Below, one piece after another: positions 2,187-16,894 of a stretch of DNA of 64,000 nucleotides (the stretch's first letter is position 1; every line of letters starts with the position of its first letter). This stretch comes from Aurantiacibacter rhizosphaerae (GTDB lineage Bacteria; Pseudomonadota; Alphaproteobacteria; Sphingomonadales; Sphingomonadaceae), in NCBI RefSeq assembly GCF_009807005.1, contig NZ_WUBR01000002.1, positions 1-64,000 of the forward strand, given 5' to 3'. Below the pieces are notes generated by a model, which was given only the letters and a program-made list of their open reading frames with translations, made no database searches and had not been told where the DNA came from. Made by a program: the position numbers and the translations under genes.

Positions 2187-2627
2187 TTACCTCAGGTGCT
2201 GGCGATAAGCCTCTGGCACCTGCGCCCAGCCTTCCTGCTGAAACTGGACTTTGCCCTCTGCATTCAGCCTGAAATATGTGAAGCCATCGAATTCGATTGC
2301 CGCATCGCCGGAATCATAGGCAGCTTCGCCTTCGAACCCTTCGCCGGAGTGCATGAAGAAGCCCCACCGCACGAATAGGTTTCCTTCAGACAGTGCCCAT
2401 TCCTGAACCGTCAGGCCAACTTTCGCCGCGCTTTGGAAATGCATGAAGGCGTTGCCGTATGCCTCCCAGCTTTCATAAGTCTGGCCGGGGTCCTCAAAAT
2501 GCAGATCGGGCGAGTAGTAGGCCTGGAGACGCTCCAGATTTTCCTTCGATGGCTGGTTGGCCATCGTCGAGAACGCATTCAGGAACTCCTGCGCGCTGTC
2601 GTTATCCGTCACCTTGTCTTTATGCAT
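2187..2627 (-). CDS. NTF2/SnoaL-like protein (1)
   Basis: A 146-residue protein of the NTF2-like fold (SnoaL/ketosteroid isomerase superfamily). It has an N-terminal helical half, then FEDPGQTYESWEAYGNAFMHF and a curved-sheet half ending VQFQQEGWAQVPEAYRQHL. Members act as isomerases, cyclases, hydratases or binding proteins. It starts 17 nt downstream of the DapB-fold gene (subfamily A, copy 1), so the two are almost certainly co-transcribed. It is only distantly similar to the three other NTF2-fold proteins of the cluster. The reaction is unknown. Confidence 0.75.
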   Translation of the reverse strand: MHKDKVTDNDSAQEFLNAFSTMANQPSKENLERLQAYYSPDLHFEDPGQTYESWEAYGNAFMHFQSAAKVGLTVQEWALSEGNLFVRWGFFMHSGEGFEGEAAYDSGDAAIEFDGFTYFRLNAEGKVQFQQEGWAQVPEAYRQHLR

Positions 2628-2644
2628 GATCGATCTTTCCCGTC

Positions 2645-3754
2645 TTATCGTAGCTTCAGGGCGAACCGGCCACCGTGGCGCGGCGTTTCGAAGAACAGGC
2701 GCCAGCCCGGTTCGGCATCGACAATGCTTTCAACGGCGTTCACCAGCCGCGCCGACGTCATCGCCATGGCATCGGACCAGCCACGTCCGGTTCCCTCATC
2801 ATAGCCGAAAGGAAATTCTGCATTGATCGGCGGGTAGCCGGCGATGTGAACGGCGTAGCCGCCATCATGGCCGATGTTGCGGAAGTCTGGCCCAGCCTGC
2901 GGCCCGATGCGGGTGACATGGTTGATGCCGAACACATCCTTGCCCTTGTAAACACCGGCGACGCGGAACATCATCGCCTCTATCGATCTTTCCGCGATCT
3001 CCAGACCTGCCTGCCCGGTGTAGGCTTCCTTGGCGAGGGCGACATCCACATCCAGGCGAATATCATCCAGTTCAATATGGAAGGCATCCGCCAGCACGTG
3101 CAGCGCGCCGCCCCAGCCGATCTTCAAGGTCTCCAGCCCTTCCGGCGGCATATCCTGCGGACGTGCGCCAAAGCCCAGCATGCGCACTGTGTCGAGCGCA
3201 CCGTAAGAGCCGTAATCGAGAATTTCCCAGGTATCGATGGAATCGATTTCGCCCGTCGCCGTGCTGGCAAAGAAGGCGAAGGCATCGGTGACGTAACCCG
3301 GATCCAGCCCGGCACCCAGCAGGCTGGCGTTGCCTGCCTTCGCTGCATCTTCCAACCGTGCGCGCAGGGCGTCCCCATTCTTGAGGTGGCGCCAGTGCGT
3401 GAAGGAGAGGATCGGCGTCAGCACATTCTTGCCGCTCCGCAGCAGCGCCTCGATATGCGGCACGGATTGCGATGAAGGGGAGCCTTCAATTGAAGGATCA
3501 GCCAGCGCATCCTTGGGCGCATAGATTACCACGTCTGCATCCAGCGCCATGAAGGCGTCCACGTCATTGCTCACCTTGATGCCGCTGTCGGGATGATCCC
3601 CATCGGCAAGCTCTGCCGCGTCCTTGCCAACCTTGTCGTCAGACCAGCACAGGACGCCCACCAGATCCAGCTCCGGGCGACCGAGAATGTAGCGCAAGGC
3701 GTACTGGCCGATCATGCCGGTGCCCCACACTGCGACTTTGAAGGATTTACTCAT
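2645..3754 (-). CDS. DapB-fold NAD(P)-dependent oxidoreductase, subfamily A copy 1
   Basis: A 369-residue protein with an N-terminal Rossmann domain (WGTGMIGQ at residues 10-17) and a C-terminal domain like 2,4-diaminopentanoate dehydrogenase and dihydrodipicolinate reductase. Conserved stretches shared with the other copies are SGKNV, a GxDPG loop (GLDPGYVTDAF) and a closing AEPGWRLF. It is much longer than true DapB (about 240-270 residues), so a role in lysine synthesis is unlikely. Its closest relative here is the gene at 12555-13661: both have IGQYALRY or VGQYALRY at the start, HWRHLKNG and HDGGYxxxIxGxPP. It lies 63 nt downstream of a seven-helix membrane protein gene. The substrate is unknown; an imine or a carbonyl next to an amine would fit the family (inference). 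Confidence 0.75.
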   Translation of the reverse strand: MSKSFKVAVWGTGMIGQYALRYILGRPELDLVGVLCWSDDKVGKDAAELADGDHPDSGIKVSNDVDAFMALDADVVIYAPKDALADPSIEGSPSSQSVPHIEALLRSGKNVLTPILSFTHWRHLKNGDALRARLEDAAKAGNASLLGAGLDPGYVTDAFAFFASTATGEIDSIDTWEILDYGSYGALDTVRMLGFGARPQDMPPEGLETLKIGWGGALHVLADAFHIELDDIRLDVDVALAKEAYTGQAGLEIAERSIEAMMFRVAGVYKGKDVFGINHVTRIGPQAGPDFRNIGHDGGYAVHIAGYPPINAEFPFGYDEGTGRGWSDAMAMTSARLVNAVESIVDAEPGWRLFFETPRHGGRFALKLR

Positions 3755-3817
3755 GTCTCAAATCTCCTCGGATCAGCTTTCGCTGTAAACGTGAATTCTT
3801 TTCCTGCGTTCAGCGGC

Positions 3818-4618
3818 TCACAAGGCCGATGGCGCGGTGCCCAGCGGCGCGAAGGTCTGGCCTTTGCCCTCGATACGGGCGATGCGGCGAAGACCGCGAA
3901 GGGCGAGGGCAGCAAGCGATGTCGCGATGATGCAGCTGGCGATTGCACCGGCCCAAGCATAGGCATAGTTGCCGGAATCAAGCCCGGATGCGAGCGGCAG
4001 GATCATGAAGACGAAGACGCCCGGCGCGATCAGCGGCGCCAGCGGCACCAGCAGCCAGCGCGTGCCGCCCTGGAATGTCGCAAACCAGATGCGCGCCACC
4101 AGCACGAAGGCCAGCGCCTGCGTTGCATTCACCAATCCCATATAGGCCGGGAAACCGCCGATCATCATAGGCTGCGGACCGTAATAGGTGAGCATGCCGA
4201 TGTGGGTCGCGTAAACCTCGAAAGCGCCTTCGGAAACGACAAGATAGAGCCAAGTGCCCCAGAACGCCTTGCCCGATACGCCGGTGCCGAAAGACTTCAG
4301 CATCAGATATCCGCCAAGCCCGAAGAACACGATGTAAAGCAGCGCCATCCACCAGGGCACGTGGACGCCAAAGGCCTCAAACGCCTCGTACTGGCCCACG
4401 GGCGAGTGATCGACCTTGATCAGGAAAGCGGCAAGGCCTTCCTCCAGCGTCAGAAACAGACCGGCAAACATCAGGATCAGCATGCGGTTGTCACCCTTGG
4501 ACAGCATGCGCAGCGCGTAGATCAGGGAGAGGACCACAAGCACGCCGAGGATCACCATGATCACCATCTGCGGCATGGCGGGCATTACGGCGTCTACCGG
4601 TTTTGGTATGATGTTCAT
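3818..4618 (-). CDS. Seven-helix membrane protein of unknown function, copy 1
   Basis: A 266-residue hydrophobic protein with about seven predicted membrane segments and short loops. I do not recognise a characterised family. It is clearly related to the protein at 13743-14534: a membrane-embedded glutamate (E59/E60 here), PW at 88-89 within a helix followed by A-L-x-Y and F-G, a second glutamate at 130, the motif PQP at 148-150, and N164 are all shared. Conserved acidic residues inside helices suggest a membrane enzyme or proton-linked carrier rather than a structural protein (inference). It is 84 nt downstream of the FAD oxidoreductase gene and 63 nt upstream of the subfamily A oxidoreductase. 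Confidence 0.7.
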   Translation of the reverse strand: MNIIPKPVDAVMPAMPQMVIMVILGVLVVLSLIYALRMLSKGDNRMLILMFAGLFLTLEEGLAAFLIKVDHSPVGQYEAFEAFGVHVPWWMALLYIVFFGLGGYLMLKSFGTGVSGKAFWGTWLYLVVSEGAFEVYATHIGMLTYYGPQPMMIGGFPAYMGLVNATQALAFVLVARIWFATFQGGTRWLLVPLAPLIAPGVFVFMILPLASGLDSGNYAYAWAGAIASCIIATSLAALALRGLRRIARIEGKGQTFAPLGTAPSAL

Positions 4619-4702
4619 TTGCCTTGTTCCTCATCCTCTATCGGCCAGCCAGCACTCCTTATCGGCGGAGAAGGCGGCCTGTAATTTTCGGCAATTGGCG
4701 CT

Positions 4703-6061
4703 TTATGCTTTCAGTTCGGCCAAGCTCTCTGCGGGAGCATTCCGGCGGCCGATATGCTTGATGATATTGTCCGCGGCCCGCTGCCCCCAATGGATGGCGG
4801 AGTTCTGGCCGGTGGTGGTGAAATAGTCCCCCGCAAGCTGAATGGGGCCGGCAGGATCGATCCGACCCTTCATCTCATTCACTGCGCGATAGTGGCCGGG
4901 CGTGGGATGCGGGATGGCAAGGTTCCAGCGGGACACTGCCATCATGTCCTGATGCCCCTTCAATTCCGGATAGAGCTTTTCCAGATAGTCGGCGGCGATC
5001 TTGCCGTATTCCTCGTCACTGCCCGATTTCACATCGTCCAGCGCGGCTTCGTCAAAATACACGGTGAACAGGCCGTGGCCGGGCGGGGTGATGTCATCCT
5101 CGCCCTTGTTATGCTCCAGCCAGATCAGCGCGATATAGGGGTTCTCAACCGTCGGCACCATCACACCGACAGAGCGGGTTTTTGGCTTCACGCTGTAACC
5201 CAGGTGAACCAGGAAACCGCGATTGTATTCGATGCGGCTTGCCAGTGGCTTTGCCACCTCAGCCATCTCTTCGCTCATCTCCACCGCCTCTGGCAGGCGG
5301 GTCGCCAAGACGCAGGCATCGGCGGTGAGGGATTGCGGCACGCCGTCCTGGGTGAAGTTTACCTCCACGCCGCCAGTGGTGCGTTTGACATCGGTAACGC
5401 GCGCATTCACCCGCGTATCCACCTTGGCGGCGAGCAGGTGCGACAGGCGCTGCACCCCGCCGCGCAGGGTGATGAACTTCACCCCGCCAAGTGTTGAGAG
5501 TGCAGAGAACCACTCCAGCGCCGAAACCGCGTCACCCCGGTTCAGCGTGCATGCCCGCATCAGCGGGTCGACCAGCACGTCGTAACTCTGCTGGTTCATC
5601 CGCTCCATCGCGAAATCCTTCGCGGTGCGGCCATCGTCCACGGCGTGGTTCGCGCTCATGTCCAGCGGGCTGAGCTTTGGCTCCATCGCGCGCATTTCCA
5701 TCATGGAGCGCGCGATCAGATATTTGCTGCGCAGGCTGAGAGCACCCGTCAGTGCGACGGTGAGCGGTTTCGTGCCGTCAATTTCGTAAAGCTTACCATC
5801 GCGGATCAGGCTGACCATGTTGCTGCCGGCAACGAAATCATCATCCACGCCCAGCTCTTTGCACAGCGCGATGTAATCGTGATAGCCGGTGGACACCTGC
5901 GTGGCGCCGGTGGGAATGGAATATCCGTTGCGCTCAATCATCTTGGCGCGCCCGCCTACTTCCTCGTCAGCCTCCAGAACGGTGACTTCCCATCCGTTCT
6001 TGTGCAGCCTGTATGCTGCACCCAAACCGGCCAATCCGCCGCCTACTACGATCGCTTTCAC
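4703..6061 (-). CDS. FAD-dependent oxidoreductase (amine oxidase/phytoene desaturase-like)
   Basis: A 452-residue flavoprotein. The FAD-binding motif GGGLAGLGAAYRL is at residues 7-19, with the ribose-binding glutamate of VLEADEEVGGRAK near residue 30. A C-terminal second FAD segment includes IQLAGDYFTTTGQNSAIHWGQRAADNI. This layout is that of the amine oxidase/protoporphyrinogen oxidase/carotenoid desaturase superfamily. GTG at 6059-6061 is the start, with AGAGGA 8 nt upstream on the minus strand. It sits inside the leftward accessory operon between an SDR and the seven-helix protein. It could desaturate an isoprenoid or oxidise an amine; the sequence does not decide. Confidence 0.8.
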   Translation of the reverse strand: MKAIVVGGGLAGLGAAYRLHKNGWEVTVLEADEEVGGRAKMIERNGYSIPTGATQVSTGYHDYIALCKELGVDDDFVAGSNMVSLIRDGKLYEIDGTKPLTVALTGALSLRSKYLIARSMMEMRAMEPKLSPLDMSANHAVDDGRTAKDFAMERMNQQSYDVLVDPLMRACTLNRGDAVSALEWFSALSTLGGVKFITLRGGVQRLSHLLAAKVDTRVNARVTDVKRTTGGVEVNFTQDGVPQSLTADACVLATRLPEAVEMSEEMAEVAKPLASRIEYNRGFLVHLGYSVKPKTRSVGVMVPTVENPYIALIWLEHNKGEDDITPPGHGLFTVYFDEAALDDVKSGSDEEYGKIAADYLEKLYPELKGHQDMMAVSRWNLAIPHPTPGHYRAVNEMKGRIDPAGPIQLAGDYFTTTGQNSAIHWGQRAADNIIKHIGRRNAPAESLAELKA

Positions 6062-6167
6062 AGCAAATGTCCTCTAATCTTACAGGGCAGGGCAGGGTGC
6101 CCGCGTGGGGGCGGCGCCGCGTCGATAGGCGCACTTGTGAGTGCGTGCCGACGGGGCGCCGCCTGCA

Positions 6168-6953
6168 TCACAGATTGCTCACCGTGGTGGAGCCGCCATC
6201 GGCCACAATCGCCTGACCGGTGATGTAAGCGCCAGCGTTTGTGGCAAGGAAGGCGCCCAGGCCGCCGATATCGGCAGGCTGGCCCATGCGGCCCAGCGGG
6301 GTCGTCGCCTCGAAATGGGCGAGCAGCTCCTCGTTTTCCCACAATCCGCGAGACAGTTCTGTCTGGATCAGGCCGGGCAGGATCGCATTGATCCGAACGT
6401 TCTGGCTGCCCCATTCGACCGCAAGCTGCCGCACCAGGCCAAGCTCTGCCGTCTTTGACACCGAATAGACCGGCGCCGCCAGCGTGCCGAATAGCGCACC
6501 GTTCGATGAAATGATGGTGAAGCTGCCACCGCCCTGCTTGGCGATTTCTGGCAGCGTCAGCTTGGCCAGCTGGACCACGGCCTTCACATTGACGGCCATC
6601 ACGATGTCCCAATCCTCATCAGGGCGCTGCGTAATCGGGCCCATGCCGGGATTGACGGCCACATTGGCCACCACGTTGTCGATACGCCCGAAGGCTTCCA
6701 GCGTCTTCTTGGTAAGAGCCTCGAGGTCTTCCTTCTTGCTCATTTCGACAGCCACGGCCAGCGCCTTGCCGCCCGCCGCCTCGATAGCGTCAACGGTGTC
6801 CTGCGCGTCTTCCACCTTGCGCGCGGTGACGACTACGGACGCGCCAAGCGCTGCGGATTCCTCTGCAATCGAGCGGCCGATGCCGCGAGACGAGCCAAGC
6901 ACGATCGACACCTTGCCGGCGAGCGAGAACAATTCACTGGGTGCGTTTGCCAT
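6168..6953 (-). CDS. Short-chain dehydrogenase/reductase (FabG-like)
   Basis: A 261-residue classical SDR. The cofactor loop GSSRGIG is at residues 20-26, the structural asparagine in VNVKA at 122, the catalytic serine in ISSNGA at 149-150, and Y163-SVS-K167. The tail ITGQAIVADGG (245-254) is typical of FabG-type enzymes. The usual NNAG segment reads NVAV, a mild departure. AAGGA is 8 nt before the ATG. It lies 45 nt after the 131-residue NTF2-like gene and before the FAD enzyme. It probably oxidises or reduces a hydroxyl/keto group of the cluster's substrate (inference). Confidence 0.83.
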   Translation of the reverse strand: MANAPSELFSLAGKVSIVLGSSRGIGRSIAEESAALGASVVVTARKVEDAQDTVDAIEAAGGKALAVAVEMSKKEDLEALTKKTLEAFGRIDNVVANVAVNPGMGPITQRPDEDWDIVMAVNVKAVVQLAKLTLPEIAKQGGGSFTIISSNGALFGTLAAPVYSVSKTAELGLVRQLAVEWGSQNVRINAILPGLIQTELSRGLWENEELLAHFEATTPLGRMGQPADIGGLGAFLATNAGAYITGQAIVADGGSTTVSNL

Positions 6954-6998
6954 ATCAATATTCCTTAAAAATCAGCGGCGCGGGCCATGGAGGATGGA

Positions 6999-7394
6999 TC
7001 AACCGAACACATCGTCCACAAGGCGCGTATCCATGTATTCCGTCATCGAATGGACCTTGCCATCCGCGATATGCAGGATGAAGAGATACTGATTGTCGTA
7101 GGCCTTGCCGTCCACGCTCTTGCCCTTGCCTTCCATCTCGATCGCCACGCGATCACCCTCTGCAATCATGCTGAGGATTTCGGTCTGGACCGGACCGTCG
7201 AGCTTCGCGCTCATCTTCTCGGTCAGCGCGGGCATATCGGCCATGGTGCGCTCACCGGAGAGGACAGAAGTGCCCTTCGTGATGATTTTGAAATCATCGG
7301 ACACCAGCGACATGATGGTGGCAGCGTCGAAATTGGACACGGCCTCCATGTATTTGCGGGCGATTGCCTTCTTGTCTTCGAGCGTGTCGGACAT
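6999..7394 (-). CDS. NTF2/SnoaL-like protein (2)
   Basis: A 131-residue NTF2-fold protein. Helices at the N-terminus (KKAIARKYMEAVSNFD) lead to the sheet half with GKAYDNQYLFIL and the signature SMTEYMDTRLVDDVF at the C-terminus. The EY-x-D signature is typical of the SnoaL-like group. It is a clear paralogue of the protein at 8638-9048, which has GKPYNNTYLLLF and SMTEYLDSILVNEVF. The two paralogues flank one subfamily B oxidoreductase. A gap of 129 nt upstream leaves room for an internal promoter. Function could be isomerase, hydratase or epoxide hydrolase; unknown. Confidence 0.78.
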   Translation of the reverse strand: MSDTLEDKKAIARKYMEAVSNFDAATIMSLVSDDFKIITKGTSVLSGERTMADMPALTEKMSAKLDGPVQTEILSMIAEGDRVAIEMEGKGKSVDGKAYDNQYLFILHIADGKVHSMTEYMDTRLVDDVFG

Positions 7395-7523
7395 TGTCTG
7401 TTCTCCCTAACTATTTCCGCTTTGCGGCCACATGCTGGCCTGCCTTGCGGTGAGTCCTCAATCTACGCGACAATCCTGCCGCGCTCCTAGAATGATCATG
7501 CTGCGACGGTACTATTTTTGCTG
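7395..7523. promoter_or_regulatory. Gap inside the leftward operon with an ACGGTACT element
   Basis: This 129-nt non-coding gap is the largest between genes of the leftward operon in its core. It carries ACGGTACT at 7506-7513, also found at 12521-12528 in front of the subfamily A copy 2 gene; the extended ATAGTACC (minus strand, 7508-7515) recurs at 12354-12361. An internal promoter or operator is plausible. No -35/-10 pair can be called with confidence. Confidence 0.3.
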
Positions 7524-8606
7524 CTATCGGCGCAGGTCCGGTTTCCAGTAAAACTCCGGCATCTCTGCGATCATGATGCCCGGTTCGGCATCGATAACCT
7601 TGGGGATGGCCTGCACCGATGGGGCCATGGTGGCGAGGTAGGCGGCCGGCGTCGGATCCCTGTCCGTTATGGCCAGATTGTCCTTCATCGATCCCTTGAT
7701 CTCCAGCCCCAGACGCGACGACGGCGTGCCTTCAACCTCGATGATCCAGTAATCGTCCGATAGCGCAGCGTCGGGCCGCATGGAGCGGTCAAGATACCAG
7801 ACCACCTGCACCTGGAACATCGGGGTGTCATCTTCAGCATAGGCGATCCATTCGAAGGATACGGTGCCCACGGTGCCGGCCTTTGCGCTGAAGCCATTGT
7901 TCAGATTGATGTCGCTGTCTGTCAGTTTGTGGTGACTGCGACGTTCGATATTCTTGATCGGAACGCCAAGGTGATCGGCCAGGTACTGAATGCCCATGGT
8001 CAGATAGTTTTCGGCCATGGTGGATGGAACAGCGTTCTGCTCCAGCTCTTCCAGGCTGGTGCCAAAGCCGTAGAGCTTCAGGATCTCTCCGTTCTCCAGG
8101 CCGGAACAGTTGAAATATTCTTCAAGCCGGATCTGGGTAATCTCGTTCGACATCCCCGTCATAGTGGCGGCCAGACGTTCATACAGGAAACCCGGATCGA
8201 TGCCCGTGCCGTGCAGCGTTGCACCGCCCTTCACGGCTGCGGCCTGCAACTTGTCATGCGCGTCCTGCCCGCGCGCTATGGGGTATTGATAGGGCAGCAC
8301 GCTGATGACGTTGATCCCCGCTTCCAGCAGCGCGATGATCTCCTCGTCATTGCGGAAATCGCCAAAATCGCGCGCGGTGTGCAGCACGACTTCGGGCTTT
8401 GCGGCAACGAAGGTGTTTATGTCCGTGGTGATCTGCACGCCGGTTTTCGGCAGGCCGACAAGGTCACCTGCATCAACGCCGTTCTTTTCCGCGCTATAGG
8501 CCATGACGGCCACCAGATCGGTTTCGGGCAGGCGCAGCAATTGCCGGATGGCGCTCTGGCCCAGGCTTCCGGGGCCCCAGATGCCAACACGATATGGCTC
8601 ACGCAT
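7524..8606 (-). CDS. DapB-fold NAD(P)-dependent oxidoreductase, subfamily B copy 1
   Basis: A 360-residue relative of 2,4-diaminopentanoate dehydrogenase/dihydrodipicolinate reductase. The Rossmann loop is WGPGSLGQ at about residues 10-17. It shares long stretches with the gene at 9905-10990: HTARDF, NVISVLPYQYP, ARGQD, KGGATL, GTGIDPGF and NYLTMG. The subfamily A copies have different residues at these places, so A and B are distinct. GAGAGA precedes the ATG. It lies between two paralogous NTF2-like genes, 31 nt after the upstream one. The reaction is probably NAD(P)H-dependent reduction of an imine or carbonyl, or the reverse (inference from family). Confidence 0.75.
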   Translation of the reverse strand: MREPYRVGIWGPGSLGQSAIRQLLRLPETDLVAVMAYSAEKNGVDAGDLVGLPKTGVQITTDINTFVAAKPEVVLHTARDFGDFRNDEEIIALLEAGINVISVLPYQYPIARGQDAHDKLQAAAVKGGATLHGTGIDPGFLYERLAATMTGMSNEITQIRLEEYFNCSGLENGEILKLYGFGTSLEELEQNAVPSTMAENYLTMGIQYLADHLGVPIKNIERRSHHKLTDSDINLNNGFSAKAGTVGTVSFEWIAYAEDDTPMFQVQVVWYLDRSMRPDAALSDDYWIIEVEGTPSSRLGLEIKGSMKDNLAITDRDPTPAAYLATMAPSVQAIPKVIDAEPGIMIAEMPEFYWKPDLRR

Positions 8607-8637
8607 TTCTCTCTCCTCGATATTTTGTTGAATAACG

Positions 8638-9048
8638 TCAGGCTGCTGCGAACACCTCGTTCACCAAGATGCTGTCGAGATATTCGGTCATCGACACGAC
8701 GCGCCCGTCGCGCACTTTGAACAGCAGCAGATATGTGTTGTTGTACGGCTTGCCCGATGCCGAAGTGGCAGTGCCCGTTGCCTGCACGATCACCGCATCA
8801 CGCTCGGCAAACATGTCCGTGATATGCAGCTGGATGCCGTTGGGCAGAGTGGCAGTAATCTTTTCGGCCAGGGCGGGCATTTCGGCTGCGGAGTACGTCC
8901 CGTGAAGCACCGACGCCGGTGTGTGAACGATGGTGAAATCATCGGTGATCCACTTCGCCATTTCCGGCGCATTCATCGCGGACATGTGCTTCAGAAACTC
9001 GCGCACCACACGCTTGTTCGCCTCACCCGACTTATCTGCGCTTTCCAT
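8638..9048 (-). CDS. NTF2/SnoaL-like protein (3)
   Basis: A 136-residue NTF2-fold protein, paralogue of the one at 6999-7394 and sharing its C-terminal SMTEYxDxxLVxxVF signature. The start at ATG 9048 was preferred over an open extension to 9156 because GGAGG lies 4 nt upstream and the extension overlaps the spacer to the next gene without family similarity. It is the second gene of the leftward run, 43 nt after the 159-residue NTF2-like gene. The exact reaction is unknown. Confidence 0.78.
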   Translation of the reverse strand: MESADKSGEANKRVVREFLKHMSAMNAPEMAKWITDDFTIVHTPASVLHGTYSAAEMPALAEKITATLPNGIQLHITDMFAERDAVIVQATGTATSASGKPYNNTYLLLFKVRDGRVVSMTEYLDSILVNEVFAAA

Positions 9049-9091
9049 AAAACCTCCGCAAACCTGAATGTGCCCAAGCGCCGCCAGCGCG

Positions 9092-9571
9092 CTATTCCTT
9101 GGACAGGTAATCAACCTCGCCGGTTTCCCAATTGATGGGGAAGGAGCCGTGCTCATGCTGAACTACCCAGCGCCCGTTCTGCTTCACCAGCACATGGGTA
9201 ACGCGCAGCACCACGCTCATCTGCGTTCCGTCGAGCATGGTGAGATCGGATGAGTGAAAAAGGAAACCGCCCGCCAGATCGCCCGCTTCGGAAACCCACA
9301 TGGTCGGCTCGCTGGAGCTGTAGCTGTCGAGTGACTTCACCTTGTTTTCAAGAAAGTCGTTCCAGATGTCGATCATGGCCTGCCTGCCGTTGTACTGGCG
9401 CGGCGTCATCTGGTCGAACAGCACGAGGCTGTCATTATCGACATAGTGGGTCATGACTTCGGGAATATCGAGGCGCGCTATCGCCTTGGACATATCCGCT
9501 TCCATCTGACGAATAGCTTCCAGTTCCCTGGCCTTGTTGGCGCCAGGGCCATTTGCTGTGTCTGCCATCAT
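9092..9571 (-). CDS. NTF2/SnoaL-like protein (4), DUF4440 type
   Basis: A 159-residue NTF2-fold protein closer to the DUF4440/ketosteroid-isomerase-like branch. After a helical start (ARELEAIRQMEADMSKAIARL) come DIPEVMTHYVDND, the substrate-pocket loop YNGRQAMIDIWNDFLE, and the C-terminal sheet VVLRVTHVLVKQNGRWVVQHEHGSFPI. It has a tandem ATG start (9571 and 9568) behind GGAGAGCAGG. It is the promoter-proximal gene of the leftward accessory run. It is divergent from subfamily B copy 2 across a 333-nt gap. Confidence 0.77.
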   Translation of the reverse strand: MMADTANGPGANKARELEAIRQMEADMSKAIARLDIPEVMTHYVDNDSLVLFDQMTPRQYNGRQAMIDIWNDFLENKVKSLDSYSSSEPTMWVSEAGDLAGGFLFHSSDLTMLDGTQMSVVLRVTHVLVKQNGRWVVQHEHGSFPINWETGEVDYLSKE

Positions 9572-9904
9572 CCTGCTCTCCTGTAGAATGCCTTGTCGCC
9601 CCGGTTTTCCGGCCAGATGCCGACACCGCGATCATTGTGGGATGATCCGCCACTGCGCGGCGCGAGAATCTGCGCCAGCGATCGGGAAGTCACCGCATTT
9701 CAGCAGGCTAGGTGGAGCAGCGGCAGGCAGCTTGTACAAAGCCGCTGCGAAGCATCCAATCGTGCTGCTATGTATAGTATGCTGACTGCCGATGGTTGCC
9801 AAGGGAAGGTGGGCTTTTCACAATTCTACTCCTGCAAGGGCCTGATTGCCGGGCTCATCATGTCGCGCCCAGGCGGAAAACCGCACGGGCCAAGGGAGAA
9901 GAGA
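9572..9904. promoter_or_regulatory. Divergent control region at the centre of the accessory cluster
   Basis: This 333-nt non-coding gap separates the leftward NTF2-like gene from the rightward subfamily B oxidoreductase. An inverted repeat GCAGCGGC (9717-9724) / GCCGCTGC (9741-9748) has 16 nt between its arms, with the small palindrome TTGTACAA in the middle. An AT-rich run with TATGTATAGTATG follows near 9770. Both directions are probably controlled here. The frame is open upstream of 9905 but shows no protein-like content. Confidence 0.45.
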
Positions 9905-10990
9905 ATGACCCGTAAACCCTATCGCGTCGCCGTCTGGGGGCCAGGAACAATGGGCAAGGCCGCGATCCGTGAGATCCTGCGCCTGCCAGAAGTCGAACTG
10001 GTATCCGTGCTGGGATACAACACGGATAATAACGGCCGCGATGTGGGCGAGTTTCTGGGCAAGGAGCCATGCGGCGTGGCGATCACCACGGATATGGATA
10101 CATTCCTCGCCGCAAAGCCCGAAGTCATCCTGCACACAGCCCGCGACTTCGCCGATTTCCGCGCCGATGACGAGATCGTGCATGTGCTGGAACAGGGCTT
10201 CAACGTCATCAGCGTGCTGCCCTATCAATATCCCGCCGCGCGCGGGCAGGATGTGCATGACAGGCTGCACGCCGCCGGCGTGAAGGGCGGGGCAACGCTG
10301 TATGGCACCGGCATCGATCCGGGCTTTTTCTACGAACGCCTTGCCCCGTTGATGACTGGCCTTTCCAGCGAGATCGAACAGATCAAGCTGAAGGAATACA
10401 CGTCCCTCATCAATCAGGGGCCGGACATTCTGCCGCTGTTCGGCTTCGGCACGACGATAGAGCAGGTGGAGAAGGATCCGATCGCGGCGACCATGGCAGG
10501 CAATTACCTGACCATGGGCATGCATTATCTGGCGGATCATCTTGGTCTGCACATCGACAGGATCGAGCGCACGGCGCACCACGTTCTTGCGCCGGAGAAA
10601 ATGTCCATCGACAGCGGTTTTTCCGTCGAACCCGATACCGTTGGCATGCTGCGTTATGATTGGGTGGGTTATGTGGATGAGAAGCCCATGTTCCAGATCG
10701 AGGTGTTCTGGTATCTGAACGAGGTGCTGCGCCCCGATAATGTGCCCTGCGATGATTACTGGGTCATCGAGATCGAGGGCAGGCCGTCCACCCGGCTGGG
10801 GCTGGAAGTTGTCGGATCCTTAAAGCGGGCAGAACGGCTGGTGCCGGATAATCCCGCGCCGCTGGCCTATATCGCTTCGATCATTCCAGCCATTCAGGCG
10901 ATCCCGGCCGTGGTCCGCGCCGATCCCGGTATTCTGGACACCGAAATGCCGCAGTTCCACTGGCTGCCCGATCTGCGCGACGCGAAGTGA
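9905..10990 (+). CDS. DapB-fold NAD(P)-dependent oxidoreductase, subfamily B copy 2
   Basis: A 361-residue paralogue of the 7524-8606 protein. The Rossmann loop WGPGTMGK is followed by LRLPEVELVSVLGY; HTARDF, NVISVLPYQYP, KGGATLYGTGIDPGF and NYLTMG are shared. The C-terminal end reads IPAVVRADPGILDTEMPQFHWLPDLR against VIDAEPGIMIAEMPEFYW in copy 1. ATG 9905 was chosen behind GGGAGAAGAG; the frame is open further upstream without protein-like content. It is the only gene of its run before a strong hairpin. Substrate unknown. Confidence 0.75.
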   Translation: MTRKPYRVAVWGPGTMGKAAIREILRLPEVELVSVLGYNTDNNGRDVGEFLGKEPCGVAITTDMDTFLAAKPEVILHTARDFADFRADDEIVHVLEQGFNVISVLPYQYPAARGQDVHDRLHAAGVKGGATLYGTGIDPGFFYERLAPLMTGLSSEIEQIKLKEYTSLINQGPDILPLFGFGTTIEQVEKDPIAATMAGNYLTMGMHYLADHLGLHIDRIERTAHHVLAPEKMSIDSGFSVEPDTVGMLRYDWVGYVDEKPMFQIEVFWYLNEVLRPDNVPCDDYWVIEIEGRPSTRLGLEVVGSLKRAERLVPDNPAPLAYIASIIPAIQAIPAVVRADPGILDTEMPQFHWLPDLRDAK

Positions 10991-11012
10991 ATTTCATTCA
11001 AATAGAAAAGAT

Positions 11013-11037
11013 GGCGCCGGTCAGGTTGACCGGCGCC
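11013..11037. terminator. Hairpin between convergent genes
   Basis: GGCGCCGGTCA (11013-11023) and TGACCGGCGCC (11027-11037) form a perfect 11-bp stem with a 3-nt loop. It lies between the ends of the subfamily B copy 2 gene and the AraC-type gene. On the minus strand it runs into ATCTTTTCTATTT, a fair terminator tail; on the plus strand there is no T-run. Confidence 0.6.
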
Positions 11038-11091
11038 TAGGGAGAGATTTGGGAGAGGGTGAGGCGCTGCGAATTGCAGCCCCGTCAGTGA

Positions 11092-12117
11092 CTAATTGCC
11101 ATCCACCAGCGTGTGCCTGCTGGATCGTCCGCAGCTTCTCAGGAAAGTCGCGGGCGGCAGGCCATAGGATTGCTTGAAGGCGCGGGTTAGATGCGCCTGA
11201 TCGGAAAAACCCGCCACGGCCGCAGCTTCACCCACGGAATAGCCGGAGTAGATGGCGTGCCGTGCCTTCTTCAATCGCAGGTCAATGATGAACCGCCACG
11301 GCGTGGTACCGGTGGATCGTTTGAACTCGCGGGAGAAATGGGCGGATGAAAGTTCCACGCGGGCGGCCATGTCGGCCACGGATAGCGACTGGTCCAGCCG
11401 CGATTCCGCCCAGCTTTTCAGCGCGCGAAGCTGGCTGGGTGCGATACCGCCCTTGTTGACGCATGCGCCAACCCGCTTGCCGAACCGCATGGCCAGCGCA
11501 TCCAGAAAATTGCCGATGATCTCGTTGGAAAGCTGGCGTGTCTTCTCGTCCGCCTGCTGTTCAAACAGACATGCGATCATCGCTTCCATCAGGCTGGCGA
11601 GGAGGCGATCGGAGGCACCGCAGACATTCTGCAGCGCGCAATGATGGCCCACGCGATTATCCAGATATCCGCCGTCTATCAGGCAGGTAGCGAAATAGGT
11701 GTGGCTCGAATGGCGAAGGGAAAATGGATGACCTTCGGTGTTAATCCAGAATGATTTTGGCGGAAGGCTGGCCGATACCCATTCGTCATCACGCTTGGTT
11801 TCCAGCTCAATCGTTTCTTCGCCAAGGTTCAGCACCAGATAGTGGCCGTCGACGACAAGATCCTCGACATCCAGCCCGCGGCTAACGCCCACTTCCAGCT
11901 TCATGCCTTCCCAGTTCAGCGCACGCGATGATGCGACAAGGTTGATCCCGTCGAGCGGGTTGACCTGCGCCCCTGTCAAAAGCTTGCGAAAACGCACCTC
12001 CGTCTCGAGGCGAGACCGCGTTTGCGGCGCGAAGGACACATTTTCCATCCGGTGGTGCGGGGCGTTGCCCGGTTGCAGCGGGGCAGGGCGGCTGGCCGTT
12101 TGAACACTGGCTGACAT
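11092..12117 (-). CDS. AraC-family transcriptional regulator
   Basis: A 341-residue regulator with an N-terminal sensing half and a C-terminal AraC/XylS DNA-binding domain over about the last 100 residues. The first helix-turn-helix is in LSVADMAARVELSSAHFSREFKR; the second in YSVGEAAAVAGFSDQAHLTRAFKQ, followed by the conserved GLPPATF. ATG 12117 has GGGGAGG 7 nt upstream and was preferred over 12186. It lies within the accessory cluster and is divergent from the subfamily A copy 2 gene; repeats in the shared gap are likely its operators. It probably activates the cluster in response to its substrate (inference). Confidence 0.87.
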   Translation of the reverse strand: MSASVQTASRPAPLQPGNAPHHRMENVSFAPQTRSRLETEVRFRKLLTGAQVNPLDGINLVASSRALNWEGMKLEVGVSRGLDVEDLVVDGHYLVLNLGEETIELETKRDDEWVSASLPPKSFWINTEGHPFSLRHSSHTYFATCLIDGGYLDNRVGHHCALQNVCGASDRLLASLMEAMIACLFEQQADEKTRQLSNEIIGNFLDALAMRFGKRVGACVNKGGIAPSQLRALKSWAESRLDQSLSVADMAARVELSSAHFSREFKRSTGTTPWRFIIDLRLKKARHAIYSGYSVGEAAAVAGFSDQAHLTRAFKQSYGLPPATFLRSCGRSSRHTLVDGN

Positions 12118-12554
12118 CTTAAGCCTCCCCCTCATTTGCAAACCGGGGGGCCGCTGCTTTGCGGGCCACCGCAGTTGCAGTGACACGAAGAATGCTCGAA
12201 TTTGCAGTATCGAGCGAATGATGGCGCAAGTTCATGCCTTATTCCTCTCCATCGAGATTCTTGTCATCAAACACCGGGTATGGCCCATGCTTGCGCTGAA
12301 TCTTCGATCACGAATGCCAGCCTCGATTAGTGTAGGCTAGCTAACCATACGGCATAGTACCATTTATTTTCGTGAGAGCAAGGTGTCTTGAGCAGGTTTG
12401 TAAAATGGCGCGCAGATTTGAACGATAATCGCGGCCAATCACCTTATGAGGCTTCCGCAGTTTTACAAACCAAGTCGAGACGTATTAGAATCGCTAGCAT
12501 ATTGTAAGCTAGCGATTGATACGGTACTGATGTTCCAGCATGAGGAGAGAGCGG
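12118..12554. promoter_or_regulatory. AraC-regulator/subfamily A divergent control region with nested repeats
   Basis: A 437-nt gene-free, AT-richer region with three kinds of repeat. (1) A direct repeat GCTAGC-N5-ATACGG at 12336-12352 and 12508-12524. (2) A perfect 10-bp inverted repeat AATCGCTAGC (12489-12498) / GCTAGCGATT (12508-12517) with 9 nt between arms, 38 nt before the GTG start. (3) A perfect 11-bp inverted repeat GGTTTGTAAAA (12395-12405) / TTTTACAAACC (12461-12471), arms 55 nt apart. This density fits operator sites for a dimeric or looping regulator, most simply the AraC-type protein alongside (inference). Confidence 0.6.
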
Positions 12555-13661
12555 GTGGATTCTTACAAGGTCATCGTCTGGGGCACGGGCATGGTTGGGC
12601 AATATGCCCTTCGTTACTTGCTGCCGCGCCCTGATCTGACGCTGGTCGGCGTGAAATGTTATCACGATGCCAAGGTGGACAAGGATGCGGCCAATCTTGC
12701 CAATGGCGAACATGCGGCCACCGGGATAACCGCTACGAATGATCGCGAAGCCATTCTGGCGATGGATGCCGATGTCTGCATCTTCGTGCCGTTCGATGCT
12801 CTCACCGATCCGAGCGTGGAGGGCACGCCGTCATCTGCATGGGTGCCCGATCTGCTGGACCTGCTGCGCAGCGGCAAGAATGTGGTCACCTCTATCCTTT
12901 CCATTTCGCACTGGCGCCATCTGAAGAATGGAGAGGCGTTCAAGGCTGGGGTGGAAGCCGCGTGCCAGGAAGGTGGCAGCTCGCTGTATGTCGGCGGTAT
13001 CGATCCCGGCTTCGTGCCCGATGCGCTGGGCTATATCTCCAGCTGCATCGTCAGCGAGATCACTTCGATCGATACGTGGGAAGTGCTGGACTATGGCTCC
13101 TACGAAATCCTGCCTGCCATGCGCATGCTGGGCTTTGGCTCCAGGCCGGAGGATATGAGCGCCGACGGGATCGAGACCCTGCGCACCTGCTGGGGCGGAT
13201 GCCCGCACATCATGGCAGATGCTTTCGGCGTCACCCTGGACGATGTGCGCGTGGATGTGGATGTGGCGCTGGCAAAAGAAGCCTATGTCTCCGATTCAGG
13301 GCTGGAAATTGGCGAGGGAACGATAGAGGCGATCAAGTTCCGCGTGGCCGGCGTGCGCAATGGGAAGGACCTGTTCGCAGTCAACCACGTCACCCGCATG
13401 GGGCAGCAATCCGGCCCCGATTTTTACCGGATCGGCCATGATGGCGGCTATGGTATCGACATCAAGGGCTTCCCGCCCGTGAAGGCCGATTTCCCCTTCG
13501 GTCTGGAAGGCGGCACCGGCAAGGGATGGTCAGATGCGATGGTGATGACATCATCCCGCCTGGTGAATGCCATTGAAAGTATCACGCTGGCAGAACCGGG
13601 CTGGAGGCTCTTCACCGAAATGCCGCGCCAGGGCGGGCGTTTCGCGCTGAAGGACGCGTGA
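12555..13661 (+). CDS. DapB-fold NAD(P)-dependent oxidoreductase, subfamily A copy 2
   Basis: A 368-residue paralogue of the 2645-3754 protein with WGTGMVGQYALRY at the N-terminus, SGKNVVTSILSISHWRHLKNG, GIDPGFVPDAL and a C-terminal AEPGWRLF-EMPRQGGRFALK. GTG at 12555 is preferred to ATG 12540: GAGGAGAG is 6 nt before it, and the resulting start (DSYKVIVWG) lines up with SKSFKVAVWG of copy 1. It is followed after 81 nt by a seven-helix membrane protein gene, the same partner as copy 1. The pair is divergent from the AraC-type gene. Substrate unknown. Confidence 0.76.
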   Translation: MDSYKVIVWGTGMVGQYALRYLLPRPDLTLVGVKCYHDAKVDKDAANLANGEHAATGITATNDREAILAMDADVCIFVPFDALTDPSVEGTPSSAWVPDLLDLLRSGKNVVTSILSISHWRHLKNGEAFKAGVEAACQEGGSSLYVGGIDPGFVPDALGYISSCIVSEITSIDTWEVLDYGSYEILPAMRMLGFGSRPEDMSADGIETLRTCWGGCPHIMADAFGVTLDDVRVDVDVALAKEAYVSDSGLEIGEGTIEAIKFRVAGVRNGKDLFAVNHVTRMGQQSGPDFYRIGHDGGYGIDIKGFPPVKADFPFGLEGGTGKGWSDAMVMTSSRLVNAIESITLAEPGWRLFTEMPRQGGRFALKDA

Positions 13662-13742
13662 TCATCACCCGTTCTGGCCACCCCGAACTATATACCATCA
13701 ATTTGCGAGTGAAGCGGATATCGAGACGCTGTGGAGAGACCC

Positions 13743-14534
13743 ATGAATCCTGAAAGCACCATTCCAGTCGCCCCGGCACTCAGCATGCCGGAGCCGCTGC
13801 AGACGATCTTCTTCTGGGTGTCGCTGGTGGCGGCAATCGGCATGCTGATCTACGCGATTTTCGTGGCGCGCCGCTTCGGCTCTTTCATCCCGGTGTTCCT
13901 GGTCATCGGTGCGTTCTGCTCGATCCCGCTGGAATCGCTGGCGGGCTATCTGGGGCACGTCGTCCATCCGGCGGGAGGCAGCATCGCGCTGTTCAGCGCT
14001 GTTGATCGCACGATCCCCTGGCACATCGCGCTGGGTTACACTGCGGGCTTTGGCGCGGTTTACCTGGTGATCTACCAGAAGGCGCTGCACGGAACGCTCT
14101 ACCGCTCCACCGTCTTCAAGACCGCGGCGACCACGGCGGTTCTATATTTTCTTGGCGAGACAATCGGGGTGTCGACGGGCCTGTGGGTCTATTTCGAGCC
14201 GCAGCCGCTGTGGATCTGGAAGATGACGGAGCCACCGATCTGGGGCATTCTGAATGCGTCGTCCGAGATTTTCGGAGCCTGCCTGATCGTGTTCCTGCTG
14301 CCGCATCTTACCGGCATCAAGCAGGCACTGGTGATCGTGATCTGTCCGATCGCGACTTTGATGGCGCATTTCGGCGCGGGCTTTCCGTGGTACAACGCAA
14401 TCAATTCATCGGCATCGCCAGCGTTCATGACCGCTACGACGTTCTTGAGCATGGGGCTGGCATTCGTGGTCTGGTGGATTTCATCCATCCTCGCCACTAC
14501 GCATGACAATTCGATCAAGACAGCGAAGCGGTAG
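13743..14534 (+). CDS. Seven-helix membrane protein of unknown function, copy 2
   Basis: A 263-residue protein with about seven predicted membrane segments, homologous to that at 3818-4618. Shared features are E64 in a membrane segment, PW at 92-93 with A-L-x-Y-x-x-x-F-G after it, E139 (GETIGVSTGLWVYF), the motif PQP at 153-155 followed by an aromatic/isoleucine stretch, and N171 (GILNAS). GGAGAG lies 7 nt before ATG 13743; an in-frame ATG at 13731 lacks a site. It follows the subfamily A oxidoreductase, so the pair A + 7TM occurs twice in the cluster, though in opposite order. Function unknown. Confidence 0.7.
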   Translation: MNPESTIPVAPALSMPEPLQTIFFWVSLVAAIGMLIYAIFVARRFGSFIPVFLVIGAFCSIPLESLAGYLGHVVHPAGGSIALFSAVDRTIPWHIALGYTAGFGAVYLVIYQKALHGTLYRSTVFKTAATTAVLYFLGETIGVSTGLWVYFEPQPLWIWKMTEPPIWGILNASSEIFGACLIVFLLPHLTGIKQALVIVICPIATLMAHFGAGFPWYNAINSSASPAFMTATTFLSMGLAFVVWWISSILATTHDNSIKTAKR

Positions 14535-14843: not shown

Positions 14844-15599
14844 TTAGGCGAACAGGGCCTTGTCATTCAAGGCTTTGCCGAGGGCCACCACGAAGCGCGC
14901 CGCATCCGCACCATTGATCACGCGGTGATCGTAGCTGAGCGATACCGGCAGGAACAGCCGCCACTCCGGTGCATCATCCGCGCCGCGCACGGGGCGTTCG
15001 ATCAGCTTCGTCAGCCCCACAATCGCCACGTCCGGCGAATTGATGATCGGCGTGAAAGACGTGCCGCCGATATGGCCCAGCGAACTCACCGTGATGGAGC
15101 TGCCGCTCATTTCCGCCATGCTCAGCCCCTTGTCGCGCGCCTTTTCAGCAAGGATAGCCATGCTCGCGGCTATTTCGGCGGTTGTCTGTGTGTTGCACCC
15201 GTGGATCACCGGCACCAGCAATCCGTTCGGCGTATCCACCGCGATGCCGATATTGAAATAACGCTTCAGGATCAGCGCGTCCCCATCTTCTGACAGGGAG
15301 GCGTTGAACATGGGAAACTGGCGCAACACCTCTACCAGCGCCTTTGCCGCCATCGCCACCGGCGTGATCTTCTCTTCGGGATTATCCGCATTCCAGGCGC
15401 GGCGATTGGCTTCAGCCTCGGTCACATCAACCTCGTCATTGTGCGTGACGTGAGGAATGCCCACCCAGTTGCGGCCCAGGAATTGCCCGGTAAGTTTCTG
15501 ATAGCGCGTGGTGGGCGTGATCTCGACCTCACCCCATTCGGAAAAATCCATGGCCGGGAAGGGGGCCAGTCTGTCGAGCAGCTCTGTAATCTTGGTCAT
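14844..15599 (-). CDS. 2-oxoacid dehydrogenase E2-type acyltransferase, catalytic domain only
   Basis: A 251-residue protein covering only the catalytic domain of dihydrolipoamide acyltransferases. The active-site segment is SYDHRVINGAD near the C-terminus, with GHIGGTSFTPIINSPDVAIVG before it. Typical E2 enzymes have about 400-550 residues with one to three lipoyl domains and an E1/E3-binding domain; all are absent here, and the start at ATG 15599 leaves no room for them. The residue four after the histidine is Asn; some active E2p enzymes also have Asn there, so it does not prove loss of activity. No E1 or E3 gene is adjacent. It may use free lipoyl partners or another acyl carrier (inference). 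Confidence 0.8.
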   Translation of the reverse strand: MTKITELLDRLAPFPAMDFSEWGEVEITPTTRYQKLTGQFLGRNWVGIPHVTHNDEVDVTEAEANRRAWNADNPEEKITPVAMAAKALVEVLRQFPMFNASLSEDGDALILKRYFNIGIAVDTPNGLLVPVIHGCNTQTTAEIAASMAILAEKARDKGLSMAEMSGSSITVSSLGHIGGTSFTPIINSPDVAIVGLTKLIERPVRGADDAPEWRLFLPVSLSYDHRVINGADAARFVVALGKALNDKALFA

Positions 15600-16486: not shown

Positions 16487-16894
16487 ATGGCGCGTATTAT
16501 CGTAGTAGACGACCATGAGATCGTTGGGGCTATCCTCAGCGAAACACTGATCGACGCAGGCCATAGCGTGGGCTGGTTGAGCGATGGGGAACAGGCCCTC
16601 GCCGCCATGAAACGGCGCCCACCACATCTCGCCATCCTTGATCAGAACATGCCCAATATCAGCGGCAGGGACGTGCTGCGGGCAATGCGGTCTGACGCCA
16701 ATCTGGTGATGACGCCTGTCATGATGCTGACAGCCATTTCCGGGGAAGAGGACGAGCGCATCTCCTATTACGAGGGCGCCGATTGTTACATGACGAAGCC
16801 TTTCGATCCGCAGGAGGTGCTCTTCTGGGCTGAAGAGCTGATCGCGAAAAAGATCACGCGGACATCGCCGCTTGGCTGCGCCACGCATCCGTGA
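16487..16894 (+). CDS. Single-domain response regulator
   Basis: A 135-residue receiver domain without an output domain. The acidic pocket is D8-D9, the phosphoacceptor D52 (AILDQNMP), the switch threonine T82 and the conserved lysine K104 (MTKPF). The stop TGA overlaps the GTG start of the hybrid kinase (GTGA, 16891-16894), so the two are translationally coupled. Such CheY-like proteins shuttle phosphate or bind a target directly. It is a natural partner of the next gene. Confidence 0.87.
   Translation: MARIIVVDDHEIVGAILSETLIDAGHSVGWLSDGEQALAAMKRRPPHLAILDQNMPNISGRDVLRAMRSDANLVMTPVMMLTAISGEEDERISYYEGADCYMTKPFDPQEVLFWAEELIAKKITRTSPLGCATHP

Follow-up and report, generated by a model that had tools for sequence, protein, structure and literature searches.

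A gene cluster of Aurantiacibacter rhizosphaerae with two paired subfamilies of native-amine-dehydrogenase-fold reductases, possibly part of a coenzyme A-linked catabolic pathway

Why should a bacterium keep four reductases of one fold, in two subfamilies of two, close together among membrane proteins and other redox enzymes, and what would they act upon? The question is raised by one end of the window, the whole stretch of 64,000 nucleotides that was analyzed (positions 1 to 64,000 of contig NZ_WUBR01000002.1, here C2, of Aurantiacibacter rhizosphaerae assembly GCF_009807005.1). Here a cluster holds two genes of subfamily A, A1 (2645..3754, minus strand) and A2 (12540..13661, plus strand), two of subfamily B, B1 (7524..8606, minus strand) and its divergent paralogue B2 (9905..10990, plus strand), and two genes for multi-helix membrane proteins, T1 (3818..4618, minus strand) and T2 (13731..14534, plus strand). 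A first-pass annotation, made from the sequence alone, had listed these genes and taken them for a possible new system; its gene content is confirmed and its interpretation partly supported. The cluster is most likely an undescribed accessory catabolic gene set, and on balance we favor reading it as the peripheral redox section of a coenzyme A (CoA)-linked catabolic pathway for a bulky hydrophobic compound, which sequence comparison would place at two loci in this genome.

The two A and two B genes had been called DapB-fold genes, and all four frames are open where they had been placed. A1 and A2 are 63% identical over 364 amino acids (aa) and B1 and B2 57% over 358 aa, with 25 to 28% identity between A and B, and in a 40-row tree the subfamilies form separate clades of eight rows each (support 100/100 for A and 100/99 for B). 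By sequence, the nearest solved relatives of all four are native amine dehydrogenases (phmmer to 6g1h, E = 2.3e-13 for A1 and 1.8e-21 for B1). A structure model of A2, made from a nine-sequence alignment (predicted local distance difference test score, pLDDT, 82; predicted template modeling score, pTM, 0.82), matched eight solved native amine dehydrogenase entries with Z 31.6 to 35.5 over 329 to 335 residues at 15 to 21% identity, and the next family, the dihydrodipicolinate reductases, with Z from 18.5. As modeled, A2 has the two-domain amine dehydrogenase (AmDH) fold, and sequence similarity assigns A1, B1 and B2 to the same fold. B1 is over the cut-off of PF01113; for PF19328 (DAP_DH_C, cut-off 23.3), B1 (24.1) and B2 (28.7) lie over and A1 (20.6) and A2 (19.4) under it. 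The genome has a further PF19328 member over the cut-off, of the B clade, on contig C4, and a fifth match below it (14.7 bits) on contig C1.

According to excerpts of PMC9325545, the glutamate equivalent to E102 of AmDH4 is the catalytic residue that activates ammonia. In our alignments E102 falls on L120 in A2 and P106 in B2, A1 and B1 show the same letters as A2 and B2 in pairwise alignment, and none of 40 relatives (an author-selected set, alignment read by eye) has Glu in that column, one S. yanoikuyae relative having it one column further on. With the ammonia-activating glutamate missing from all four enzymes, reductive amination by A and B is predicted to be unlikely. The imine chemistry first suggested by analogy with diaminopentanoate dehydrogenase and dihydrodipicolinate reductase is weakened accordingly, and A1 and B1, the two proteins scanned, fall far under the equivalog cut-offs for both identities: 86.7 and 105.2 bits against 400 for 2,4-diaminopentanoate dehydrogenase (NF040740), and 19.2 and 28.9 bits against 122 for DapB (TIGR00036).

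It is improbable, in our estimate, that A and B are nonetheless amine dehydrogenases or imine reductases with another catalytic residue, in a cluster for the degradation or synthesis of a nitrogenous compound such as a steroidal or terpenoid alkaloid. The fold and nearest solved relatives point that way, as do an H-W/Y-R/K-H stretch kept just past the former glutamate site in all eight A-clade rows and the flavin adenine dinucleotide (FAD) oxidoreductase of the cluster (4703..6061, minus strand; PF01593, E = 1.1e-42), which belongs to the amine oxidase/protoporphyrinogen oxidase/CrtI-like superfamily. Yet the glutamate is gone from all four reductases, and the available part of PMC11164908 describes a group, G5, that mainly lacks this residue and whose glutamate-less members were inactive on the substrates tried. 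The FAD enzyme, which is under the cut-off of every NCBIfam model among the 25 matches listed, scores better against models and structures of the protoporphyrinogen-oxidase type than against monoamine oxidases, and no other nitrogen-handling gene was recognized in the Pfam results for the cluster.

The case for CoA-linked catabolism comes from the genomic company that relatives of these genes keep in Sphingobium faniae (S. faniae). This genome (G296) shows a marked expansion, with eleven DUF7064 matches and ten A-profile matches, and by tree four of the latter belong to the A clade and five to the B clade. Of the four A genes, three have a B gene no more than 10 kb away (contigs C59, C90 and C52), an arrangement that random placement produced in 5 of 200,000 trials. 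On C59 (locus L034, FMTU01000006) a row of CoA genes, namely DUF35, thiolase, MaoC, CitE-like, acyl-CoA dehydrogenase, MaoC, short-chain dehydrogenase/reductase (SDR) and enoyl-CoA hydratase, is followed by an FAD gene (49% identical to that of the window), DUF7064, an A gene (78% to A2), an APH kinase gene, another on the opposite strand, a B gene and DUF1295. FAD relatives occur at four S. faniae loci (L034, the A locus of C57, a second B locus of C59 and the T locus of C61), and the S. faniae loci also hold ring-hydroxylating dioxygenase alpha subunits, TonB receptors, CoA ligases and BKACE genes. Among the literature matches listed, there was no experimental account of the S. faniae locus.

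A CoA degradation module of this kind is present in the window's own genome, at about 11.6 to 29.3 kb of contig C4 (L057:1631-19297). Its operon part is ordered as on S. faniae C59, with genes 77 to 93% identical to those of the S. faniae CoA operon, and is followed by the C4 B member (83%) and a DUF1295 gene (82%), with no FAD, DUF7064, A or APH gene between. Further on come mutase-type and MeaB genes and then a lipoyl/E1b/E1a set, 65 to 67% identical to Diaphorobacter genes in a row that also holds E2 and T-family genes. The window has a stand-alone 2-oxoacid dehydrogenase E2 catalytic domain (14844..15599, minus strand; 251 aa; PF00198, E = 1.3e-67, its sole family, with no lipoyl domain by Pfam), which adjoins T2 and is 54% identical to the Diaphorobacter E2. 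A search of C4 found no E2 relative, the other three E2 matches in this genome lie in frames of 441 to 493 aa, and S. faniae has E1a, E1b, lipoyl and E2 genes together on its contig C60. The cluster probably extends to the E2 gene, whose product may complete the C4 E1/lipoyl set, and these similarities suggest a single pathway served jointly by the window and C4.

We propose that A and B, as NAD(P)-dependent oxidoreductases, would reduce or oxidize a C=O or C=C bond and not aminate. The FAD enzyme would desaturate a ring or chain carbon, the SnoaL proteins of the cluster would isomerize, hydrate or dehydrate, and the SDR would act on an alcohol or ketone, with T1 and T2 as membrane proteins that either modify a lipophilic intermediate, in an isomerase- or cyclase-like manner, or move it. 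The AraC-family regulator would induce the cluster genes; the product would be CoA-activated and degraded by the thiolase/MaoC/CitE-like/acyl-CoA dehydrogenase/mutase-type set of C4, and the E2 beside T2 would complete the E1/lipoyl complex from there. The substrate class may, quite tentatively, be cyclic and isoprenoid-like (steroid or terpenoid type), which is the weakest claim made here. A doubtful though possible elaboration is that A and B are partner classes with a new non-aminating reaction, which together with T and the FAD desaturase reshape or open a polycyclic isoprenoid before its CoA-dependent degradation.

Several observations weigh against the catabolic reading. The placement test for A and B ignores that catabolic genes cluster anyway; there was no B gene in 20 kb around the A gene of S. 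faniae C57, and the S. faniae T relative, on C61, is not near any A gene. S. faniae has 11 DUF7064 matches, 9 of them over the cut-off, and the window's genome has none; neither the window nor C4:1-49,990 yielded an APH-kinase relative, so the gene sets of the window and S. faniae differ. Mycobacterium branderi (M. branderi) and the genome G389 have A genes with no B, FAD or T gene within the 31 kb and 14.3 kb covered, respectively; APH-kinase relatives accompany both, with DUF7064 in M. branderi as well, and a plasmid of M. branderi carries a T-like stretch with a stop, away from the A locus. The link between the window and C4 is one of homology only, and the isoprenoid suggestion is weak, depending on company: the CrtI-like superfamily of the FAD enzyme, DUF1295 and an RPE65-type oxygenase near a distant relative. 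Failure of the genes to recur together in related genomes, which the first-pass annotation named as a refutation of its proposal, was not borne out: S. faniae has A, B, FAD and T relatives, partly in the same neighborhoods, although M. branderi and G389 have A alone of these nearby.

How the pairs arose bears on whether the genes belong together at all. Each A gene does adjoin a membrane protein gene of one family, as first described, and the relation between T1 and T2 is weak (25% identity over 177 aa, blastp E = 1e-6; 21 to 25% across alignments). The seven helices first ascribed to both are tentative: at a chosen hydropathy threshold T1 has six separate segments and T2 about five, and a model of T1 shows eight helices, seven long and one short, at pLDDT 39. 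Neither protein has a Pfam match, six T relatives gave only chance-level Pfam matches (E = 0.5 and 0.71), a sequence search of the PDB returned nothing for the family at E <= 10, and a scan of genome contigs with T1 found no relative. The best plasmid relative of T1 is from Diaphorobacter (33% identity over 59% of its length), and T2 is 58% identical to a protein on S. faniae C61, with which it pairs at 100/100. That T1 and T2 are exclusive sisters was rejected (approximately unbiased test, p-AU 0.0003), in a tree with long branches, and their grouping with the S. faniae T protein was weakly rejected (p-AU 0.024).

The inverted copy of a block retains its internal gene order. In transcription order the units here read 5'-T1-A1-3' and 5'-A2-T2-3', and this order, together with the separation of T1 from T2, does not fit the single inverted duplication of an A/membrane-protein unit that had been suggested. 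DNA similarity within 1 to 20 kb is nearly confined to the coding regions of A (68.6%) and B (69.1%), the two other matches (23 and 29 bases) being of chance size. B1 and B2 are sisters both in the 40-row tree (100/99) and in a 10-row tree (99/97). The 40-row tree puts A1 outside a group of A2 with two S. faniae genes (93/96), and the 10-row tree pairs it with A2 (69/75), a pairing that was not rejected (p-AU 0.231). Judged from these trees, the pairs of paralogues seem to differ in their histories, which, together with the rarity of A-type and T genes in genome samples, would suit a patchwork of unrelated oxidoreductase genes, separately duplicated in an accessory region and with no common pathway. 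We consider such a patchwork unlikely, given that the same rare families recur together in S. faniae, with A near B there.

A biosynthetic role instead, in the tailoring of a natural product of terpenoid or polyketide-like type, seems the least probable explanation: SnoaL, SDR, FAD desaturase-like and membrane proteins are also frequent in biosynthetic clusters, and relatives of the FAD enzyme (about 30%) occur on Streptomyces plasmids, but the cluster proteins scanned with Pfam include no terpene synthase, prenyltransferase or polyketide synthase, and the S. faniae relatives have genes for beta-oxidation, ring-hydroxylating dioxygenases, TonB receptors and CoA ligases as neighbors. As an identity for the pathway, the catabolism of steroidal glycoalkaloids by tomato Sphingobium was also considered and rejected; the thiolase is about 80% identical, but none of the A and B matches among the plasmids searched came from these strains, and the main text of PMC10653915 mentions neither thiolase nor CoA ester lyase. 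The first-pass annotation had known of no pathway with this gene set, and there was none in open-licence papers among the matches listed.

The cluster looks rare and accessory in our surveys, which are samples of genomes in which only first-look candidates were scored. The T1 query matched 1 of 147 genomes of the order and the T profile 1 of 296, in both cases the window's own, and the A profile at E <= 1e-60 matched 1 of 385 genomes of the class, again its own. At E <= 1e-3, A1 matched 16 of the 296 order genomes including its own, the others at 27 to 38% identity; in the family of S. faniae the A profile at E <= 1e-15 matched 33 of 298, with only S. faniae and G389 below 1e-100. The window's genome seems to share that family, as the two family samples apparently drew on the same genomes. 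None of the seven sampled genomes of the same genus had an A or T match, and a near-DNA search of the cluster against plasmids gave no match. Among more distant relatives, A-like genes at L044 and L045 (28 to 29% to A2) lie near SnoaL and SDR relatives of window proteins, and L042, L047, L048, L050, L052 and L054 each have a B-like gene with thiolase and DUF1295 relatives at most 20 kb away. At L051:7207-14297 (gene ends set by the author's script) a distant B-like gene overlaps a thiolase gene, with an RPE65-type oxygenase, SnoaL and AMP-binding enzymes nearby. A family member on a Mycolicibacterium chubuense plasmid (L039:7998-13974) has a multiubiquitin-domain protein and a ThiF-family adenylyltransferase encoded only a few genes away.

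The remaining genes of the cluster bear out the NTF2-fold, SDR, FAD and AraC assignments of the first-pass annotation, with the amendment that the range holds one SDR (6168..6953, minus strand; PF13561, E = 1.2e-59) and that the SnoaL genes number four, all on the minus strand. These are a SnoaL_2 gene at 2187..2627 (146 aa; PF12680, E = 4.5e-7, above the cut-off), one at 6999..7394 (131 aa, identified by Pfam and alignment, 40% identical to that at 8638), one at 8638..9048 (by Pfam; the frame is open to 9156, and the start at 9048 was picked by a codon-usage script) and a SnoaL_3 gene at 9092..9571 (PF13474, E = 1.3e-11), which probably leads the minus-strand operon. The AraC-family regulator lies at 11092..12186 on the minus strand (PF12833, E = 6.7e-21; script-picked start 12048). 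Judged by spacing, the minus-strand genes from 9571 to 2187 would form one operon, followed by the divergent B2, then AraC and a plus-strand A2-T2 operon; promoter and terminator counts are close to shuffle means. The window starts at base 1 of C2, so the left edge of the cluster may be cut. Candidate further members on that side are an SDR gene (748-1734) and a Rieske protein (214-552); the SDR gene adjoins 1737-2075, whose product we take to be a small multidrug-resistance-like membrane protein. To the right, 16487-19728 holds a response-regulator-like gene (by eye) and then a MASE1 hybrid histidine kinase of 945 aa.

If A and B do follow a non-aminating route, this would supply a physiological role for an orphan part of the native amine dehydrogenase family, its G5-like branch, and the A-B pairing beside CoA catabolism would provide a concrete, testable context for this glutamate-less branch. 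The cluster would also tie together T and DUF7064, two families without an assigned function, in a pathway that is apparently divided over two loci and could for that reason be easily missed by annotation.

Compared with the native amine dehydrogenases AmDH4/PetroAmDH (6g1m), TtherAmDH (7xdu), CfusAmDH (6iau), MsmeAmDH (6iaq) and MATOUAmDH2 (7r09), the window reductases are alike in the full two-domain fold of the A2 model and in sequence matches for all four, but unlike in having no catalytic-site glutamate (E102 in AmDH4, E108 in Cfus and E111 in MATOU, with roles as given in excerpts of PMC9325545). In this they resemble the glutamate-less G5 members, as described in the accessible part of PMC11164908. 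With diaminopentanoate dehydrogenase (NF040740) and DapB (TIGR00036) they have distant homology and the Rossmann domain in common, at scores far under the cut-offs. Among gene clusters, the plasmid of Diaphorobacter sp. HDW4B (NZ_CP049906) is like the window and C4 in its T-family genes and E1/E1/lipoyl/E2 row, about 28 kb from which lies a related thiolase module; it also has APH, DUF7064/7065 and an FAD relative at 27%, and is unlike the window in that no A or B relative was found there. S. faniae CGMCC 1.7749 (L034 and C61) differs from the window in its APH kinases and DUF7064 and in keeping A, B and FAD beside the operon with T on another contig, and resembles it in having relatives of A, FAD, B and T and a beta-oxidation operon.

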